Source: Caulobacter sp. (lineage in GTDB: Bacteria; Pseudomonadota; Alphaproteobacteria; Caulobacterales; Caulobacteraceae). Taken from it: a stretch of 32,518 nt of DNA. Under the pieces are notes generated by a model, which was not told the DNA's origin, searched no databases, and saw only the letters and a list, made by a program, of their open reading frames with translations. A program made the translations under genes and the position numbers. Below, in pieces: positions 9,324 to 15,891 of the stretch (the first letter of the stretch is position 1; each line of letters starts with the position of its first letter). The DNA lies in contig JARWZW010000023.1 in NCBI GenBank assembly GCA_029866155.1, positions 1-32,518 of the forward strand, written 5' to 3'.

Positions 9324-10031
9324 TCAGTTCACCACCTGAGAAACCGCGCCTGTCGCCTTTTCATCCCGCTCGGATCCGGTGGCTTTGCCCTGCCGGTATT
9401 TTTCGAACATCACGCCGCGCTGCTGAGCGTCGGCGGCCGTCATGTCGCGGGGATTGAGGAGGTCTTCCGGGGAGGCGATCTGGGCCGCCATGTTGGCTGC
9501 AATGGCGCAGCCGAAGTTGTCATAGACCCGGTTGTCGCTGCTGTGGCTGAGGTTGCGCCAGTTCCCGCAGGTCGGGGTTTCGACCACATAGCGGCTGAAA
9601 CTGATGACCACCGGCGCCCTGGGCTGATCGCTGCCGTCATAGGCCTGCATGCGGATGGCGGACGGCGGAACCCCCAACGACAGCAGTCGGTCGCGGGCGT
9701 CCCAAGCGACCCGGTTGGCGCCCCTGGCCTCCGGACCCGTCTCGGGCGCCCGGACCTGGATCTCGCGTCCTTCGGCCTTCAGCCACTGGCCGACGAATTC
9801 CTCAAGCGCCGCCGCCTGGGGCGCCGACAGGCCGGTGTCATGGGGCGCGAGGCGGATATCGACCGGGGCCGGCAACACCCTGACCTGGTCCTGCCAGGCG
9901 TCGAGGGCGGTGGGCGCCAGGCTTTCGGCCTGGGGGCCGGTTCCGGTCGCGCAGCCGGCCAGAAGCACGACCGCCGCCAGGGCGGAAAGGCCAGGAAGAG
10001 ACAGGACTGGAGCGCTGGGACGATGGGTCAT
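9324..10031 (-). CDS. cpaD: Pilus assembly lipoprotein CpaD
   Basis: A 235-residue outer-membrane lipoprotein of the CpaD family. The N-terminal hydrophobic segment ends in a lipobox (LLAGC, Cys near residue 26). The rest is periplasmic and contains the conserved stretch TPTCGNWRNLSHSSDNRVYDNFGCA, which has two cysteines that may form a disulphide, followed by NMAAQIASPEDLLNPRDMTAADAQQRG. CpaD is thought to act with the CpaC secretin in the outer membrane. It lies between cpaC and cpaE with gaps of four bases on both sides, as expected inside a tight operon. Confidence 0.93.
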   Translation of the reverse strand: MTHRPSAPVLSLPGLSALAAVVLLAGCATGTGPQAESLAPTALDAWQDQVRVLPAPVDIRLAPHDTGLSAPQAAALEEFVGQWLKAEGREIQVRAPETGPEARGANRVAWDARDRLLSLGVPPSAIRMQAYDGSDQPRAPVVISFSRYVVETPTCGNWRNLSHSSDNRVYDNFGCAIAANMAAQIASPEDLLNPRDMTAADAQQRGVMFEKYRQGKATGSERDEKATGAVSQVVN

Positions 10032-10035
10032 CTGG

Positions 10036-11631
10036 CTACTCGATCACATATCCAATGGGGCCCTGGTAGGGACGGTCGGCGTTGGCCCCCGGAGGGGCCT
10101 TGACGGCCTTGTTCAGCTTGCCGAGCAGCAGGGTTTCCGGGTCGCTGGCCAGCTGAAGTCCATCCGCCGGAGACTGGAATTGGCGGGGCGCGCGGGGGTC
10201 GACAATGTAGGGCGTCACCAGGATCACCAGTTCGGACTGGCCGCTGATGAAGTCCCGCGACCGGAACAGGCTGCCCAGCACCGGCATGTTCATCATGCCC
10301 GGAATGGAATCGAGGTTCTGGGCAGTCCGTTCACGAAGCAGGCCGGCGATCATCATGGTGCCGCCGGACGGCATCTCAACCACGTTCTCCGCCCGCCGCA
10401 CCGACAGGCCGGGAATGGTCAGGGTCGATAAGCCGGACTGCAGGGAGAACGCTCCGGCGCTGCTGAGTTCGGAGACCTCGACGGAAATCTTCAGGGAGAT
10501 GCGGCCGCCGCCCATGACGATCGGGGTAAAGCCCAGACCCACGCCATATTTCTTGAACTCGACCGTCACCCGGCCGGAATTGTCCTGGCCCACCGGGACC
10601 GGGAACTCACCGCCGGCCAGGAAATTGGCGGGCTCGCCATTGGAGGTGGTCAGGTTGGGTTCGGCCAGGGTGCGGACCAGGCCCACACGTTCAAAGGCCT
10701 TGATGGTGGCGCTACCCTTGTTCAGCTCATTTGAGCCGGCCACATTCTGGGTGGTGGCCGTCTCCCAGTTTGCAGCGTCCTTGGGACCATTGACGATCAC
10801 CGGGCAGAGCGCCCCGGCAGACCAGCCGGCGCCGGTGCAGGGCTGCTCCATGATGGTCGCCTTGGTGGTGTCCAGGTTATAGCCGCCGGACAGGCCACCC
10901 AGCAGGGCCCCGCTGATTCCGAAGGTCGCCGATTTGGCGAAGGTCAGCTGGTCCTGTCCCAGTTGGCCAAGGACGGCGTTGAGGTCGAAGCCCAGCTGCT
11001 TGACCACATCCCGGTTCACCTCGACCACCCGGACCTTCAGCATGACCTGGTCCTTGCCGGCCACCTGCAGCAGGTTCATCACCATCTCGGGCTTGGCGAC
11101 CGATCGGGCGGCGATCTGGCCAGCCTTGTCGGCGTCGCCGGGAGTCAGGACCAGTCCGGTCAGGATGATGGAGTCGCCGATCGGCTCGATCCGGACCTTG
11201 GACCCGGGCAGAACCCGGTTGATGGTGTCGGCGAGGGCGGAAATGTCCTGATCGACCCTCACATTGAGAGACAGGATCCGCCGGCCGGCGGCGTCGAAGA
11301 ACACCGCATCGGTCTGGCCGGCCGCCAGGCCGAGCAGATAGATTCGCCGGCTGGTCCGCATCACGGCGTCGGCCACCAAAGGATTGGTCACCAGAACATC
11401 GCGAACGTCGACAGGCAGTTCGATGATTGCTGACTTGCCGCGCGGCAAAGACAGGGACTGGGCTGCGGCGCCGGAAGACAGGTCGACTCGAACCGTATCG
11501 GGTGTGGCGGAGGCCATCCCCTGGCTGCGGACGTCAGGTCCCCCGGACAGGGTCTGGGCCAGAGCGGGTGCGCCGGCCAGGTGCAGTCCGGCTGCCGAAA
11601 GCAGGGCGGGAAGGAGCCGAAGCGGCTTCAT
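10036..11631 (-). CDS. cpaC: Pilus secretin CpaC (RcpA)
   Basis: A 531-residue outer-membrane secretin that forms the exit pore for the Flp pilus. It has a cleavable signal peptide ending in APALAQ, a pilus-formation N-terminal domain (about residues 45-130, with the VLVTNPLVADAVM motif), a BON-like segment (about 130-190), and the C-terminal secretin domain with LAGGEFPVPVGQDN and the signature region around KYGVGLGFTPIVMGGGRISL. The length is normal for the family. Its ATG overlaps the cpaB stop by four bases, so translation is coupled. The N-terminal domain has a stand-alone relative at 14375-14755. Confidence 0.95.
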   Translation of the reverse strand: MKPLRLLPALLSAAGLHLAGAPALAQTLSGGPDVRSQGMASATPDTVRVDLSSGAAAQSLSLPRGKSAIIELPVDVRDVLVTNPLVADAVMRTSRRIYLLGLAAGQTDAVFFDAAGRRILSLNVRVDQDISALADTINRVLPGSKVRIEPIGDSIILTGLVLTPGDADKAGQIAARSVAKPEMVMNLLQVAGKDQVMLKVRVVEVNRDVVKQLGFDLNAVLGQLGQDQLTFAKSATFGISGALLGGLSGGYNLDTTKATIMEQPCTGAGWSAGALCPVIVNGPKDAANWETATTQNVAGSNELNKGSATIKAFERVGLVRTLAEPNLTTSNGEPANFLAGGEFPVPVGQDNSGRVTVEFKKYGVGLGFTPIVMGGGRISLKISVEVSELSSAGAFSLQSGLSTLTIPGLSVRRAENVVEMPSGGTMMIAGLLRERTAQNLDSIPGMMNMPVLGSLFRSRDFISGQSELVILVTPYIVDPRAPRQFQSPADGLQLASDPETLLLGKLNKAVKAPPGANADRPYQGPIGYVIE

Positions 11632-12515
11632 GGGGACACCTTTACTTCGGTCATCACGCCGGCCCGGTGCACCCGCACCATGGAGCTTGTGTTTGAACTA
11701 TTGGCGCCGCCGCCCCGGGATGGCCCGCCAGCGGTGTCCGACACCCCTCGCAGCACCAGCATCAGAACGCCGCTCTGCTTGGCCTGGGCTAGGGCGCTGA
11801 CCATCACCTCGGAAGCGGATGCGGGGATCTCGAGGGTAGCGACGGTGCCGACCATGGACTTGGCGTCCTTTTCCGGCTCCGGCTTCTGATCAATGGCGAG
11901 GACCCGGACATTGCGCATGACGGTGTGGGTCTCGAAACCCACGACATTCTCATCGGGACTGTCGCGGCTATAGATGACGTCAACCCGGTCGCCGGGAAGT
12001 ATGAAGCCGGCGACCGCCGTATCGACCGTGACCGGGGCGGAGATGGCGCGCATCCCGGCGCCCAGAACCACCGCCATGAAACCGCCCTCGCCGCCGCGCA
12101 CGACCTTGCGCAGGACAATCGGCTCGCCCTTCACGAAGGGTTCCTTGACGATCGCGCCGACCACCTGCTCCATGCCCGCGCCGGAGAACAGGTTTCCGGC
12201 GGTCTTGGCTGCGGTCTGGGCGGCGCCCGCCGCGCCGTCCTTGGCCACCTCGGGCGCAGCGCCGTCGGAGATGAAGGCGGCATTGAGGGATTCGGCCGGC
12301 CAGCCCTGCCAGCTGACGTCAGCAGCGGTGATGCGCAGGCCGACGGCCAGGTCCTGTTTGGCCACCAGCACCTGAACCATGGGCTTGGCCGGAGCGGTCT
12401 CCGTCACAGCGGCCGGGGCCGCTGACCTGGAGCCGAAGGCTCCACGGACCACGAAGGCCAGACCGATGGCGGCCACGGCTGCGATCACGAGAATGAAGAG
12501 TCGGACGGGGCTCAT
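11628..12515 (-). CDS. cpaB: Pilus assembly protein CpaB (RcpC)
   Basis: A 295-residue periplasmic protein tethered by one N-terminal helix (residues about 4-24), followed by the SAF-type domain (VLVAKQDLAVGLRITAADVSWQGWP, about 48-75) and the RcpC/CpaB domain. CpaB is thought to gate or stabilise the CpaC secretin. The ATG at 12515 (MSPVRLFILV) is chosen over a TTG nine bases upstream because CpaB family members typically begin this way. The Shine-Dalgarno sequence is weak, and a GC hairpin (12533-12549) sits just upstream. The gene follows cpaA after a 137-bp gap, the largest gap in the cpa run. Confidence 0.92.
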   Translation of the reverse strand: MSPVRLFILVIAAVAAIGLAFVVRGAFGSRSAAPAAVTETAPAKPMVQVLVAKQDLAVGLRITAADVSWQGWPAESLNAAFISDGAAPEVAKDGAAGAAQTAAKTAGNLFSGAGMEQVVGAIVKEPFVKGEPIVLRKVVRGGEGGFMAVVLGAGMRAISAPVTVDTAVAGFILPGDRVDVIYSRDSPDENVVGFETHTVMRNVRVLAIDQKPEPEKDAKSMVGTVATLEIPASASEVMVSALAQAKQSGVLMLVLRGVSDTAGGPSRGGGANSSNTSSMVRVHRAGVMTEVKVSP

Positions 12516-12532
12516 GCGGCTCAAACGGCTGG

Positions 12533-12549: not shown

Positions 12550-12652
12550 GAGGGAACCGGTCAGACTCCGCTTTGGCGGGTCCGGGCCGATGATTCGCGT
12601 CGCAGCTTTCCGGCGACTTCCTGACCATGCGCGGGCCATGGTTAACGCGTGA

Positions 12653-13174
12653 CTAAGGAAGTGCGGCGAAGGCCATGGCCAATGGGCTCTCCGGAAAAGC
12701 CGCCAGAGCGCCGATGGCGATCGCCACGCCATAGGGCGCATCGCCGCCCGGGGTCGCCAGGCGACCGACCCATTCTGGCCCCCGTACGGCGACCGGCCGG
12801 ATCCAGACCGACCTCAGGCCCAGAAGCGAAACCGCCAGGGCGCCGCCGGCCAGGCCGGTGACCAGAACGAACGGCATGGAGGCCGGCCAGCCCAGCCAGA
12901 GGGCCGCAGCCGCAAACATCTTGGCGTCGCCGCCGCCAATCCAGCCCATGGCGAACATGCCCATGGACAGAAACAGCGCGCCGACCCCTACCCCGACCAT
13001 GAGCAGGACGGTTTGCCAGGGAAGACCCAGAGCCAGGGCCGCCAGCAGGAAACCGCCGATCAGACCGAGGGAAATCCAGTTGGGGATCGTGAAACTGGTG
13101 ATGTCCTTCAGGCCGCCCACAATGACCAGGGCGGGAAAGACCATCAGCAGAAGAGCTTGGAGGAGCTGGATCAT
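12653..13174 (-). CDS. cpaA: Prepilin peptidase CpaA (TadV, A24 family)
   Basis: A 173-residue inner-membrane aspartyl peptidase that cleaves the leader of Flp prepilins and TadE/F-like pseudopilins after Gly. About six hydrophobic helices are visible. The two catalytic aspartates are present: Asp24 in LKDITSFTIPNW and Asp83 in the GGGDAKMF motif. There is no N-terminal methyltransferase domain, as usual for CpaA/TadV. It follows pilA after 111 bp that include a strong hairpin (13228-13251), so its expression may depend on partial read-through from the pilin promoter. Confidence 0.94.
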   Translation of the reverse strand: MIQLLQALLLMVFPALVIVGGLKDITSFTIPNWISLGLIGGFLLAALALGLPWQTVLLMVGVGVGALFLSMGMFAMGWIGGGDAKMFAAAALWLGWPASMPFVLVTGLAGGALAVSLLGLRSVWIRPVAVRGPEWVGRLATPGGDAPYGVAIAIGALAAFPESPLAMAFAALP

Positions 13175-13227
13175 GGTTGGTTACACTGCCGGATGACGGT
13201 GAAGCAAAGGTTGATCTCAAGCGGAAA

Positions 13228-13251
13228 GGGCCGCGGATTTCTCCGCGGCCC
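13228..13251 (-). terminator. Strong hairpin between pilA and cpaA
   Basis: GGGCCGCGGA (13228-13237) and TCCGCGGCCC (13242-13251) form a perfect 10-bp stem with a 4-base loop. Read on the minus strand it lies 35 bases after the pilA stop and is followed by TTTCCGC, a short T-run. A leaky terminator here would give high pilin mRNA and lower expression of the cpa genes, as is common for abundant structural subunits. Confidence 0.65.
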
Positions 13252-13285
13252 CCCCGTTTTCTTCGCAGCAGTAAGGCGCGATCGC

Positions 13286-13450
13286 TTACGGCAGCTTGTC
13301 GTTGATATCGCCGAAAGCGGTGTTGAGCTTGGTGCCGAGGGTGGTGACGGCGGTGATGATCACAACGGCGATCAGAGCGACGATCAGGCCATACTCGATG
13401 GCGGTGGCGCCGGATTCATCCTTCACGAAGCGCGAAACAAACTTGGTCAT
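13286..13450 (-). CDS. pilA: Flp/Fap type IVb major pilin PilA
   Basis: A 54-residue prepilin. The leader MTKFVSRFVKDESG ends at Gly14, and the mature part starts ATAIEYGLIVALIAV, with the Glu5-Tyr6 pair of Flp pilins, then a hydrophobic helix and a short polar tail. CpaA is expected to cleave after Gly14 to leave a 40-residue subunit. The ATG at 13450 has AGGAG upstream with an 8-base spacer; a longer in-frame extension to 13549 has no support. A CtrA-like box stands 90 bp upstream. The coding sequence is 98% identical (162 of 165 bases) to the upstream pilin at 13944-14108, differing at positions 13322, 13420 and 13426. It is the first gene of the pilA-cpa order seen in Caulobacter. Confidence 0.96.
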   Translation of the reverse strand: MTKFVSRFVKDESGATAIEYGLIVALIAVVIITAVTTLGTKLNTAFGDINDKLP

Positions 13451-13539
13451 GGCTTTTTCTCCTGTTGCAAGCCTCGTTAGCGGGTTCAAGCCGCTTGGCC
13501 TGCTCGCCCCGAAAACAAGGCCATCTTGGGGGATCCTGC

Positions 13540-13554
13540 TTAAACTCAAGTAAA
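13540..13554 (-). promoter_or_regulatory. CtrA-like box upstream of pilA
   Basis: On the minus strand the sequence is TTTACTTGAGTTTAA, that is TTTA-N7-TTAA, one base from the CtrA consensus TTAA-N7-TTAA. It begins 90 bp from the pilA ATG. The same arrangement (TTTACTTGA then TTAAG) stands at the same distance before the second pilin. A shared GGGGCGAGC block follows at 13502-13510. CtrA control of pilA is established in Caulobacter crescentus; here it is inferred from the motif and context. Confidence 0.6.
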
Positions 13555-13873
13555 CATCGAGCGCCCATTCCGGGTTTTATTATAGTTGATCTTTCTTTAC
13601 TATTATTTTTTCTTAACTATGTATCATTTATCGTTATTTTTCCATATGTTATGGTAATTTCAAATCTTTCTCGCCTTGCTGCAATTTTTCCTGCCCGGTC
13701 AGGTTCAGGCTGAACGGCCCCAGCGCCCGAGTCCCGTCCGGCGTCGGGTCCGTCCATCCGGCAGCGGTTTGCCGCCCCGGCGCCGAGCTTCAGACCTTGC
13801 TGGACAGGGCCGGTGGCCAGCTCCAGGGCCGCGGCAGGCCCGATGCTCATTGCAGCGGTTGATCCAGCGCATG
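13555..13873. other. Gene-free spacer between the two pilin genes, with an A+T-rich island
   Basis: No convincing gene is seen. Positions 13573-13670 are roughly 80% A+T by eye, a sharp contrast with the surrounding GC-rich DNA. They contain several TTAA and TTTA half-sites (for example TTAA at 13613-13616) but no second clean CtrA box. The part at 13690-13870 is GC-rich and carries a 77-codon minus-strand open frame without a ribosome site. The A+T-rich part lies just upstream of the pilA CtrA box, so it may act as an upstream promoter element, or as a binding region for a nucleoid protein. This is inference. Confidence 0.5.
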
Positions 13874-13904
13874 AAAAAAGGCCCCGGCTTGCGCCAGGGC
13901 CCTT
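13874..13904 (-). terminator. Intrinsic terminator after the second pilin gene
   Basis: Read on the minus strand, AAGGGCCCTGGC (13904-13893) pairs with GCCGGGGCCTT (13888-13878) with one bulged base, closed by a GCAA tetraloop. Six T residues follow (13879-13874). It lies about 40 bases beyond the stop of the 13944-14108 pilin. This is a textbook rho-independent terminator and suggests that the second pilin is a monocistronic transcript. Confidence 0.82.
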
Positions 13905-13943
13905 CAGTTTCTCTTGTAGAGAAGGGCTTTTCAGCCCGCCGTC

Positions 13944-14108
13944 TTACGGCAGCTTGTCGTTGATATCGCCGAAAGCGGTATTGAGCTTGGTGCCGAGGGT
14001 GGTGACGGCGGTGATGATCACAACGGCGATCAGAGCGACGATCAGGCCATACTCGATGGCGGTGGCGCCGGATTCATTCTTCAGGAAGCGCGAAACAAAC
14101 TTGGTCAT
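13944..14108 (-). CDS. Second Flp/Fap pilin, near-identical copy of PilA
   Basis: A 54-residue prepilin that is easily overlooked because of its size. It starts MTKFVSRFLKNESG and continues ATAIEYGLIVALIAV. It differs from PilA only by V9L and D11N, both in the leader that CpaA removes, so the two mature subunits should be identical. The third base change (13980) is silent. An AAGGAG stands 8 bases before the ATG at 14108, a CtrA-like box 90 bp upstream and an intrinsic terminator downstream. The high DNA identity stops abruptly at both ends of the coding sequence, suggesting recent duplication or ongoing gene conversion. It is probably expressed under the same control as pilA, and effectively doubles the pilin dose. 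Confidence 0.93.
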   Translation of the reverse strand: MTKFVSRFLKNESGATAIEYGLIVALIAVVIITAVTTLGTKLNTAFGDINDKLP

Positions 14109-14197
14109 GGGTATCTCTCCTTGCTAGCGGCCAACTTCGGGGTCTTCAGGTCGTTGCCCGCTCGCCCCAGATGCAACAACAGAATGACAAGCCGCCC

Positions 14198-14212
14198 TTA
14201 ATTTCAAGTAAA
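14198..14212 (-). promoter_or_regulatory. CtrA-like box upstream of the second pilin
   Basis: The minus-strand sequence TTTACTTGAAATTAA is TTTA-N7-TTAA, 90 bp before the pilin ATG. Its offset from the pilA box is 658 bp, exactly the offset of the two coding sequences. The GGGGCGAGC block (14160-14168) is also conserved at this offset. Further T/A-rich half-sites (TTTATTTTGG, TTTTACTTAA) and GATTC (GANTC, the CcrM methylation target) at 14267-14271 and 14347-14351 lie in the same divergent intergenic region, which also serves the plus-strand tadE-like set. Confidence 0.6.
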
Positions 14213-14374
14213 GCGCGAAATGAAGATCGCGTTTATTTTGGTTTACAAAGCGTTTTACTTAATTTTGATTCACCATTCGAACGGGAGCCCCAGCCCAGGC
14301 ACGACCTTCAGGCTTTATTGACCAATCCCCCCGATCCTTAAGGCTTGATTCATCCGAGAAATCCGGAGCCGTCC

Positions 14375-14755
14375 ATGCGCCGCCCTGCCCTGGCCATTCT
14401 CGCCGTCCTTCTGCTTGCGGCGCCAGCCCATGCACAGTCCCTCACGGTCCCCGTGGATCGGGCCGTTCGGATCGGACTGTCCGCCTCCGCCAAGGATGTG
14501 GCGGTTGGCAATCCGGCCATTGCGGATGTCACTGTCATGGACGAGCGCAACATCCTGATCCTGGGCAAGGCCTATGGAACGACAAATGTCGTGGTTCTGG
14601 ATCGCTCAGGACGGCTGATCCTGGACCGTGTGGTCAATGTGACCGCCCCCGATACAGGCCGGATCTCGGTCTATAAGGGCGCCACGCCGTCCCACTACGC
14701 CTGCTCACCTCGCTGCGAACTGACGACCTCAACCGGAGCGACACCTCCGCCCTGA
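14375..14755 (+). CDS. Stand-alone pilus-formation N-terminal domain protein (CpaC N-domain-like)
   Basis: A 126-residue periplasmic protein. The signal peptide ends in APAHAQ, followed by one domain (about residues 22-100) with the motif VAVGNPAIADVTVMDERNILILGKAYGTTNVVVLD. This matches the N-terminal domain found before the secretin domain of CpaC (compare VLVTNPLVADAVM in cpaC of this window). The C-terminus (CSPRCELTTSTG) has two close cysteines and no secretin domain. The ATG at 14375 has GGAG 6 bases upstream; an in-frame TTG at 14345 is less likely. It is the first gene of the plus-strand set divergent from the second pilin, and probably helps the CpaC pore or its assembly. The exact role is not established here. 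Confidence 0.82.
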   Translation: MRRPALAILAVLLLAAPAHAQSLTVPVDRAVRIGLSASAKDVAVGNPAIADVTVMDERNILILGKAYGTTNVVVLDRSGRLILDRVVNVTAPDTGRISVYKGATPSHYACSPRCELTTSTGATPPP

Positions 14756-14809
14756 AGACCCCGATGGGCCTAAACCGGACCTTAAGCTCAATCTGTCAGG
14801 GTCCTCGAT

Positions 14810-15361
14810 GTGCAGACCTCCAGCCTTCCCCGCCGCGCCCAGCGCCTGATCCGACGGTTCATCGCCGCTCGACGGGGATCTGCTGCAGTCGAATTCGCCT
14901 TCGTCGCCCTGCCCTTCCTAACCCTGCTGTTCGCCGTCCTGGAACTGGGCATGGTCTTCCTGGTGTCCACGACCCTGCAGAATGCGGCAGACGCCGCCGG
15001 CCGCAAGATCCGGACGGGCGAACTCCAGGCAGCCAGCGGCACGGCGGCGACCTTCAAGGATGCCATCTGCGGAGAAATGACCTGGCTGGGTTCGGACTGC
15101 AGCGGCAACCTGCTGATCGACGTCCGTACCTTCACCACCTTCAACAGCGTGTTGTTCGAAGACCCCGTGACCGATGGCGAGGTCGATCCCAGCAAGACAA
15201 AGTTCCAGCCAGGCAATGCCGAGGATATTGTCGTGGTCCGGGTTTATTATACCTGGACGCTGTTCACGCCGCTGCTCAATACAGGCCTGAAGACACTGCA
15301 CGGCGGCAAGCGGCTGATCTCCACCACCGTCACCTTCCGCAACGAGCCCTGGTCAACCTGA
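14810..15361 (+). CDS. TadE-like pseudopilin protein
   Basis: A 183-residue protein with the TadE-like pattern: a basic N-terminus with a Gly before SAAVEFAFVALPFLTLLFAVLELG, giving a prepilin-like cleavage site (RRG then SAAVEFA), one hydrophobic helix (about residues 24-50) and a periplasmic domain with two cysteines (ICGEMTWLGSDC). TadE and TadF are processed by the prepilin peptidase and act as minor pilins or assembly factors. The start is GTG at 14810 with AGGG upstream. It follows the N-domain protein after 54 bp, and its stop overlaps the next gene's ATG by one base. The subfamily (TadE, TadF or TadG) is not certain. Confidence 0.85.
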   Translation: MQTSSLPRRAQRLIRRFIAARRGSAAVEFAFVALPFLTLLFAVLELGMVFLVSTTLQNAADAAGRKIRTGELQAASGTAATFKDAICGEMTWLGSDCSGNLLIDVRTFTTFNSVLFEDPVTDGEVDPSKTKFQPGNAEDIVVVRVYYTWTLFTPLLNTGLKTLHGGKRLISTTVTFRNEPWST

Positions 15362-15891
15362 TGGGACTGTTTAAACGCTTTCGGCAGGACAGGCGCGGCG
15401 TCTCCGCCGTCGAGTTCGCCCTGATCGCTCCGGCGATCATCGCCTTCTATTTCGGTCTTGCAGAACTGACCCAGGCCATGATGGCCGAACGCCGGGTGGC
15501 GCATGCGGCTTCTGCGATCGGCGACCTGGTGGCCCAGTCCTCCCAGATCAATACCGCCAGCCTGACGGACATCTATTCCATCGGCGACACCATCATCAGC
15601 CCCTTTCCGACCGACAGCCTGAAGATGCGGATTACCTCCGTCGTGGCCGACGCCAGTCTCAAGCCGGCCGTGGCCTGGAGCACGGGAGACGGCATGACGC
15701 CCCTGGCGGTCGGCGCCAAGGTGTCCCTGCCCAATGGCCTGCTGACGGTCGCCGGCCAGAGCGTGATCATGTCCGAGGTGCAGTACAGCTACGACTCACC
15801 GGTGGACTATTTTGTCCCGTACGCGGTGAACTTCGACAAGATCTTCTTCCTGCGCCCCAGGAAATCGGACACCGTCACCAAGACCGATTAA
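15361..15891 (+). CDS. TadE/TadG-like pseudopilin protein
   Basis: A 176-residue protein starting MGLFKRFRQDRRG, then VSAVEFALIAPAIIAFYFGLAEL, again a prepilin-like segment with Gly before the hydrophobic helix and a Glu five residues in. The rest is a periplasmic domain ending in PYAVNFDKIFFLRPR. The ATG overlaps the stop of the upstream TadE-like gene in TGATG, so translation is coupled. It is much shorter than TadG proteins, which carry a von Willebrand domain. The 3' end overlaps the convergent pabC-like gene by 17 bases. Confidence 0.85.
   Translation: MGLFKRFRQDRRGVSAVEFALIAPAIIAFYFGLAELTQAMMAERRVAHAASAIGDLVAQSSQINTASLTDIYSIGDTIISPFPTDSLKMRITSVVADASLKPAVAWSTGDGMTPLAVGAKVSLPNGLLTVAGQSVIMSEVQYSYDSPVDYFVPYAVNFDKIFFLRPRKSDTVTKTD

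Follow-up and report, generated by a model that had tools for sequence, protein, structure and literature searches.

Why does a tad/cpa locus carry two pilin genes in tandem that would supply one and the same mature subunit, and what has kept the two alike? The question is raised by a stretch of Caulobacter sp. DNA of 32,518 nucleotides (the window; its genome is designated G000), in which the minus strand of the locus carries two Flp pilin genes and then the prepilin peptidase gene cpaA (12653-13174, PF01478 57.9 bits), cpaB (11628-12524, PF16976 82.1 bits), the secretin gene cpaC (10036-11631, PF00263 125.7 bits), and cpaD (9324-10031, PF09476 169.3 bits). Divergent from the pilin genes, the plus strand carries a gene with a secretin N-terminal-type domain (14375-14755, PF13629 77.8 bits, in an open frame at 14345-14755), which by its position we take to be cpaI-like, and a TadE-like pseudopilin gene (14810-15361, PF07811 49.6 bits). 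The name cpaI is given to such a gene in a table of a paper on S. meliloti (PMC10934763). A weak PF04964 match, below the cut-off at 21.8 bits, lies at 15379-15438 of the plus strand in the N-terminal part of the protein that follows the TadE-like gene, and this protein looks like a second pseudopilin. Moreover, the window's own genome codes for a third Flp_Fap protein, unlike the pair (locus L105, G000 C24:33800-40000, 49.3 bits), and the 6.2 kb around it hold no relative of pilN or cpaA; a second, weaker PF04964 match is also present in many genomes of the genus.

The gene adjoining cpaA, here copy 2, occupies 13286-13450 and the distal gene, copy 1, occupies 13944-14108, both on the minus strand. 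As the earlier note had described them, they are two Flp/Tad pilin genes lying 658 bp apart with 162/165 bases equal, and they differ only in codons 9 (13426/14084) and 11 (13420/14078), which belong to the cleaved leader, and by a silent change in codon 43 (13322/13980); each codes for a prepilin of 54 aa, the leader of copy 1 carrying V9L and D11N, and the mature products of 40 residues are predicted to be identical. Both score above the PF04964 (Flp_Fap) cut-off of 32.2 bits (79.4 for copy 2, 78.8 for copy 1) and carry, after a short leader, the prepilin cleavage motif G/XXXXEY described in PMC10934763, in the form ESG/ATAIEY. The C. crescentus pilin loses 14 residues by cleavage after residue 14 (PMC11067988, in excerpt), and residues 15-47 of copy 2 resemble solved Tad pilins (8u2b_A, E 9.4e-12; 8u1k_A, E 3.2e-11), 8u2b being a C. 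crescentus structure. The pair is thus predicted to consist of pilA-type Tad pilin genes. The first 33 residues of the mature pilin are those of 8u2b in the single-copy genomes G027 and G044, and a C. crescentus-like mature pilin is also found in G072, which has two copies. The near-identity had been said to end at the ATG and at the stop codon; more exactly, and bar the three differences, in-register identity begins at -2 and ends one base past the stop codon, and the longest exact run between the copies is 97 nt. The accompanying claim of differing flanks stands only in part, as the flanks are not simply different: a CtrA-like box, the GGGGCGAGC.GGC motif, and an AGGAGA ribosome-binding site are shared, in register at the 658-bp offset.

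The history of the pair can be read from group A, which comprises seven genomes (G000, its nearest relative G068, G031, G033, G037, G049, and G052) that form one clade on the cpaA, cpaB, pilN, and tadE proteins (SH-aLRT 100, quick tree) and that all carry the pilin pair (7/7), with a spacing of 649 to 751 bp. The public record labels the apparent contig of G068, CAMAVA010000095.1, as Brevundimonas vancanneytii; it groups within the window's genus, and the label may be wrong. The 110 bp upstream of the 14 copies fall into a copy-1 clade and a copy-2 clade (support 100/99), and grouping of a genome's own two copies is rejected for this DNA in 7/7 genomes (p-AU 1.8e-7 to 3.6e-4). Conversely, for the coding sequences, a tree constrained to keep the copy-1 genes in one group is rejected (p-AU 0.0009), and the grouping by position is rejected also for the mature part alone (p-AU 0.004) and for third codon positions (p-AU 0.003). 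The earlier note had set its reading against a separate clustering of the orthologues of each copy: such clustering is present only for the regulatory DNA and absent for the coding sequence. The comparison of paralogues with orthologues across related genomes that it had proposed places the window's coding pair together (96/93), as it does the pair of G037 (97/92) and, with moderate support, that of G031 (91/87). The pairs of G068, G033, G049, and G052 are not grouped by genome, although such a grouping is not rejected either (p 0.346, 0.07, 0.097, and 0.142, respectively), and copy 2 of G049 joins copy 2 of G052 by position (90/93). The duplication therefore predates the split of the seven genomes; the regulatory DNA tracks position, and the coding DNA as a whole, silent sites included, does not. 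Since the upstream DNA splits by position and the coding DNA does not, the duplication is old and its coding part alone was homogenised later, for which gene conversion is the best explanation.

The same division is visible in counts of informative sites over four sequences, here given as concerted:orthologous:crossed for all 21 pairs of group A genomes, which share genomes, so that the counts are descriptions and not independent trials: 56:406:8 upstream, 35:11:6 in the leader, 139:20:3 in the mature part, and 7:211:13 downstream, with 63:15:2 at the silent sites of the mature part. Within a pair, the mature part differs at 1/33 silent sites in the window and at 2/34 in G037, at 4 to 6 in G031, G033, G049, and G068, and at 10/34 in G052, where the difference is as large as between genomes; the same-position copies of the window and G068 differ at 10/33 and 9/33 silent sites of the mature part. 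The uneven grouping of pairs and the spread of silent differences suggest that homogenisation has been episodic, recent in the window's genome and in G037 and older or absent elsewhere. Amino-acid changes follow lineages as well: G000 and G068 have D37 of the mature pilin in 4/4 copies, against 0/10 copies elsewhere in the group, and S22 and G26 are present in both copies of G037 and in 0/12 other copies. In the window, all three differences look derived in copy 1 (13944-14108). At two of the three sites, its base is absent from the other 13 copies of the seven genomes, and at the codon 11 site, its A is found elsewhere only in copy 1 of G049.

Gene conversion, as put forward in the earlier note, is thus supported by flanks that follow position and coding DNA that does not, the pattern being strong in only 2/7 genomes. 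On this evidence, the coding sequences of the two pilA-type genes probably overwrite each other by recurrent gene conversion, and both genes would supply one identical subunit. The agent would be homologous gene conversion acting in episodes, and its tracts seem to stay within the coding sequence, as the copies are still alike only there.

Each gene, in turn, would keep control elements of its own. The start codon, an AGGAG ribosome-binding site, a CtrA-like box, and a GC hairpin after the stop are present at both copies. The boxes, which are near matches to the TTAA-N7-TTAA consensus and are predicted to be CtrA sites, have the form TTTA-N7-TTAA and lie on the minus strand at 13540-13554 upstream of copy 2 and at 14198-14212 upstream of copy 1; pattern matching finds each in 7/7 group A genomes. 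The tighter pattern TTTAC-N6-TTAA, shaped after the boxes had been seen, matches twice in the 32.5-kb window, once per pilin gene, and shuffles give 0.00 matches. The terminator-like GC hairpins, also on the minus strand and folded in 7/7 group A genomes, lie at 13225-13252 after copy 2, with a weak T run, and at 13874-13903 after copy 1, with a T run. A consensus scan returns one sigma-70-like site, with 0.7 expected, and five terminator-like sites, with 2.8 expected; none of these five is either pilin hairpin.

Between box and ATG, each copy has a further element in its 5' UTR. On the minus strand, a 5' UTR element with a conserved hairpin extends to the ATG of copy 2 at 13448-13527 (68 bits, E 1.4e-13 with model R1), and a diverged counterpart precedes copy 1 at 14106-14185 (43.4 bits, E 1.8e-7), both UTRs being training members of R1 and scored in their own genome, where the next match has an E-value of 2.3. 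In alignment A2, from which 67/68 sequences were used (G004_2 left out), the six-pair hairpin between box and ATG is paired in 98.0% of 393 cells over the 67 sequences. Its covariation is modest, with 2 pairs changed on both sides, a count reached by 91/500 shuffles, whereas the covariation score is reached by 0/500 shuffles; the structure was derived from the same alignment, which favours it in this comparison. Upstream of copy 2, an 81-nt run is identical between the window and G068, where 103/110 bases are equal and the copy-2 coding sequences differ at 11/165 bases; upstream of copy 1, conservation is lower, with 91/110 bases equal. The element also precedes the pilins of loci L034-L104 and L108-L147 and is conserved through the genus. 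In other genera, the UTR model gives 23 matches with E < 0.001 in 20/40 loci, each ending on the pilin start codon. The element may be a regulatory RNA element. No Rfam family reaches its gathering score in window positions 12600-14800 or in positions 2600-3300 of L096, and the freshwater-2 hit over the copy 2 UTR was dropped, as it scored 20.6 bits against a gathering score of 49.9 and did not recur in L096. As the 5' UTR of copy 2 is of the genus-wide pilA type, copy 2 is likely the original pilA.

With two sets of control DNA, transcription of both copies would fall under CtrA, and the pair would be kept because the supply of one subunit that fits a homopolymer is raised or spread in time. 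Excerpts of the literature add reasons why a uniform subunit makes sense: in the Tad filament, every pilin is in contact with six adjacent subunits (PMC11067988), and a review (PMC13234629) reports an interaction of the PilA helix with PleC during surface sensing, so that lattice and sensor might both select for identity. In its widest form, the proposal would make the tandem pair of the Caulobacteraceae conversion-locked, with one invariant mature pilin fitting both the lattice and the PleC contact, two independently evolving CtrA promoters and 5' UTRs and, in some genomes, two leaders, an arrangement that would let the cell control timing and supply separately while still making a single kind of subunit; taken whole, this is a tentative and rather doubtful reading. 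Of its ingredients, the double dose of one subunit and the different processing rates from the two leaders, both raised in the earlier note, are plausible.

Whether selection maintains such pairs can be weighed against their distribution in the genus. PF04964 has a match in 75/75 genus genomes and one above the cut-off in 73/75. The survey of cpa-linked pilin loci covers 70 loci in 69 genomes, two of the loci being from G053, and counts copies of at least 50 bits to the pilin model; G014, G058, G060, G062, and G067 are outside it (best E-values 6.8e-8 to 7.3e-5), L068, L075, and L105 were left out for want of a pilN or cpaA neighbour, and L054 of G022, which ends at a contig edge, is counted as one copy. 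One copy is present in 30 loci, two in 36, and three in 4, and the best mature identity among the copies is at least 80% in 20/40 multi-copy loci and 48 to 74% in the other 20. The box is found on at least one copy in 70/70 loci; among the 40 multi-copy loci, it stands before every copy in 9 (those of the seven group A genomes, G004, and G050) and before one copy only in 31. In a clade of nine genomes (L034, L035, L036, L039, L042, L061, L066, L098, and L101), the second pilin has diverged strongly throughout; it starts 202 to 222 bp behind the start of the first and is devoid of its own CtrA-like box, which is the opposite fate of a duplicate. The divergence of leaders, considered as a general rule, is a weak trend only: of 34 genomes, 23 have copies whose leaders are less similar than their mature parts, 2 show no difference between the two parts, and 9 have the more similar leaders, and among orthologue pairs the leader is the less similar part in 80/156.

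This fluidity of copy number, together with the divergence in half of the multi-copy loci and the loose conservation upstream of copy 1, speaks for a neutral by-product, in which conversion follows from tandem closeness, chance maintains the two copies, and neither dose nor uniformity is selected for. The control DNA of group A tells against it, given that the CtrA-like box is kept at both copies in all seven genomes, that each copy retains its ribosome-binding site and, behind the stop codon, a hairpin specific to its position, and that the window and G068 have the 81-nt run before copy 2 in common without a change even though the silent divergence of cpaB is 0.90. The neutral account is a possibility to be reckoned with, if on the unlikely side.

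Strong purifying selection on protein and codons could also keep the copies alike with no conversion at all. Between genomes, the silent divergence of the pilins is 0.13 to 0.55, in most cases less than cpaA and cpaB show for the same genome pairs. Codon constraint thus explains a part of the likeness, and some pairs, such as that of G052, are as distant as orthologues. Purifying selection alone, however, predicts orthologues as alike as paralogues, and the window's pair has a single silent difference, against the ten and nine that separate its copies from their orthologues in G068; third codon positions reject the grouping by position, and lineage-specific amino-acid changes have entered both copies. 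Codon constraint is real, yet insufficient for the window's pair, and this explanation is unlikely. A recent tandem duplication within the lineage of the window's genome would account for coding sequences that are nearly identical, but the same two positions and the same two kinds of flank recur in 7/7 genomes of the clade, and on these position-specific flanks it was rejected as highly improbable. Lastly, an assembly artefact, a concern of the earlier note that might be prompted by a source genome in 73 contigs, is very unlikely to the point of being negligible, as the longest exact repeat is only 97 nt, the flanks are unique, different from each other and each common by position to seven genomes, and the same arrangement occurs in G049, listed as a single contig.

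Recurrent gene conversion, the preferred reading, can be followed into other sets of genomes. The three genomes of group B (G039, G061, and G072) share another type of leader (MTRLLKAFAQDESG) in the second copy, and over the 3 genome pairs the leader goes by position (0:47:0) and the mature part by genome (44:3:2). The two pairs that involve G039 provide the mature signal (17:1:0 and 26:0:1), and G061-G072 gives 1:2:1; the pair of G061 is only 74% alike. Taking the second copy of G061 as the unconverted type, the switch from position-like to copy-1-like sequence directly follows codon 10 in G039 and comes after base 48 in G072, and such different breakpoints suggest that the two events were separate. 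Groups C (5 genomes, 10 pairs; mature part 33:14:9, upstream 0:279:6) and D (3 genomes, 3 pairs; mature part 27:1:2, upstream 1:51:0), compared by first and last copy only, lean toward a concerted mature part with position-like upstream DNA. Silent-site counts skip genome pairs with unequal mature lengths, which takes G039 out of group B and G042 out of group D; G004, G050, and G065 are homogenised and enter no four-sequence comparison.

Beyond the genus, 19 of 40 family-level regions hold at least two copies, with a filtered mature identity of at least 80% in 14/19, frequencies that are biased by the choice of regions partly for tandem hits. Six of the nine multi-copy loci of genus g3, compared in 15 pairs, give 23:163:47 upstream, 115:0:0 in the leader, 148:7:1 in the mature part, and 115:7:14 downstream, so that the homogenised stretch extends beyond the stop codon; comparable upstream DNA does not exist in every pair. 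In G120 of this genus, the coding sequences of the two copies are identical and their upstream DNA is unlike (60-bp identity 0.22). In genus g7, three tandem copies in L128 (G099) and two in L129 (G165) are alike in their upstream DNA as well, with a 60-bp identity of 1.00 between copies 1 and 3 of L128 and within the pair of L129, and these are probably recent duplications that include the promoter. L109 (G097) has three tandem pilin copies at oriented coordinates 2827, 3226, and 3610 that share the N-terminal half and have three C-terminal readings, as if frameshifted; they are possibly decaying copies or sequencing errors.

Pilin genes that undergo gene conversion are familiar from the antigenic variation of Neisseria pilE/pilS. 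That system shares with the window the conversion between pilin genes but diversifies the pilin from silent cassettes, whereas the window's pair homogenises two apparently complete genes; a silent-cassette variation system was rejected for the window, as the locus has no donor copy lacking a promoter or a start. Nearer at hand, an excerpt of PMC11264516 describes in C. crescentus the same gene, pilA, before cpaA under a CtrA-dependent promoter, with a -35 CtrA site that departs by one base from TTAA-N7-TTAA and with three further CtrA sites upstream. The window's TTTA-N7-TTAA boxes are likewise one base off the consensus, like that -35 site; unlike C. crescentus pilA, the window has two pilin genes, each with such a box. 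The same excerpt remarks that Brevundimonas subvibrioides, of a sister genus, has a duplicated pilA with a CtrA site visible at one copy only, whereas the window has a box at both; the 31/40 multi-copy loci with the box on one copy fit this remark. Concerted evolution is known for tuf and for tandem flagellin genes (PMC6053082, in excerpt), in which paralogues are closer than orthologues, at silent sites too, as in the window's pair, and flagellin, like pilin, forms a filament; the word pilin is absent from the main text of that paper. In the open-licence literature, searched by title and the start of the abstract, no earlier report was found of concerted evolution or gene conversion of Tad (Flp) pilins. 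The process is already known from tuf and flagellin, and the duplicated pilA of the family is already in print, in one sentence of the PMC11264516 excerpt; it is homogenised Tad pilins for which no earlier report was found in that search.

The pilin pairs amount to a natural experiment on the fate of a duplicated filament subunit, which within one genus stays alike (20/40) or diverges (20/40), while in the groups compared the upstream DNA tracks gene position. Pilus structures are known for the laboratory model C. crescentus, whose PilA is reported to act in surface sensing, so that the effects of dose, timing, and leader that the two genes may have are directly testable.
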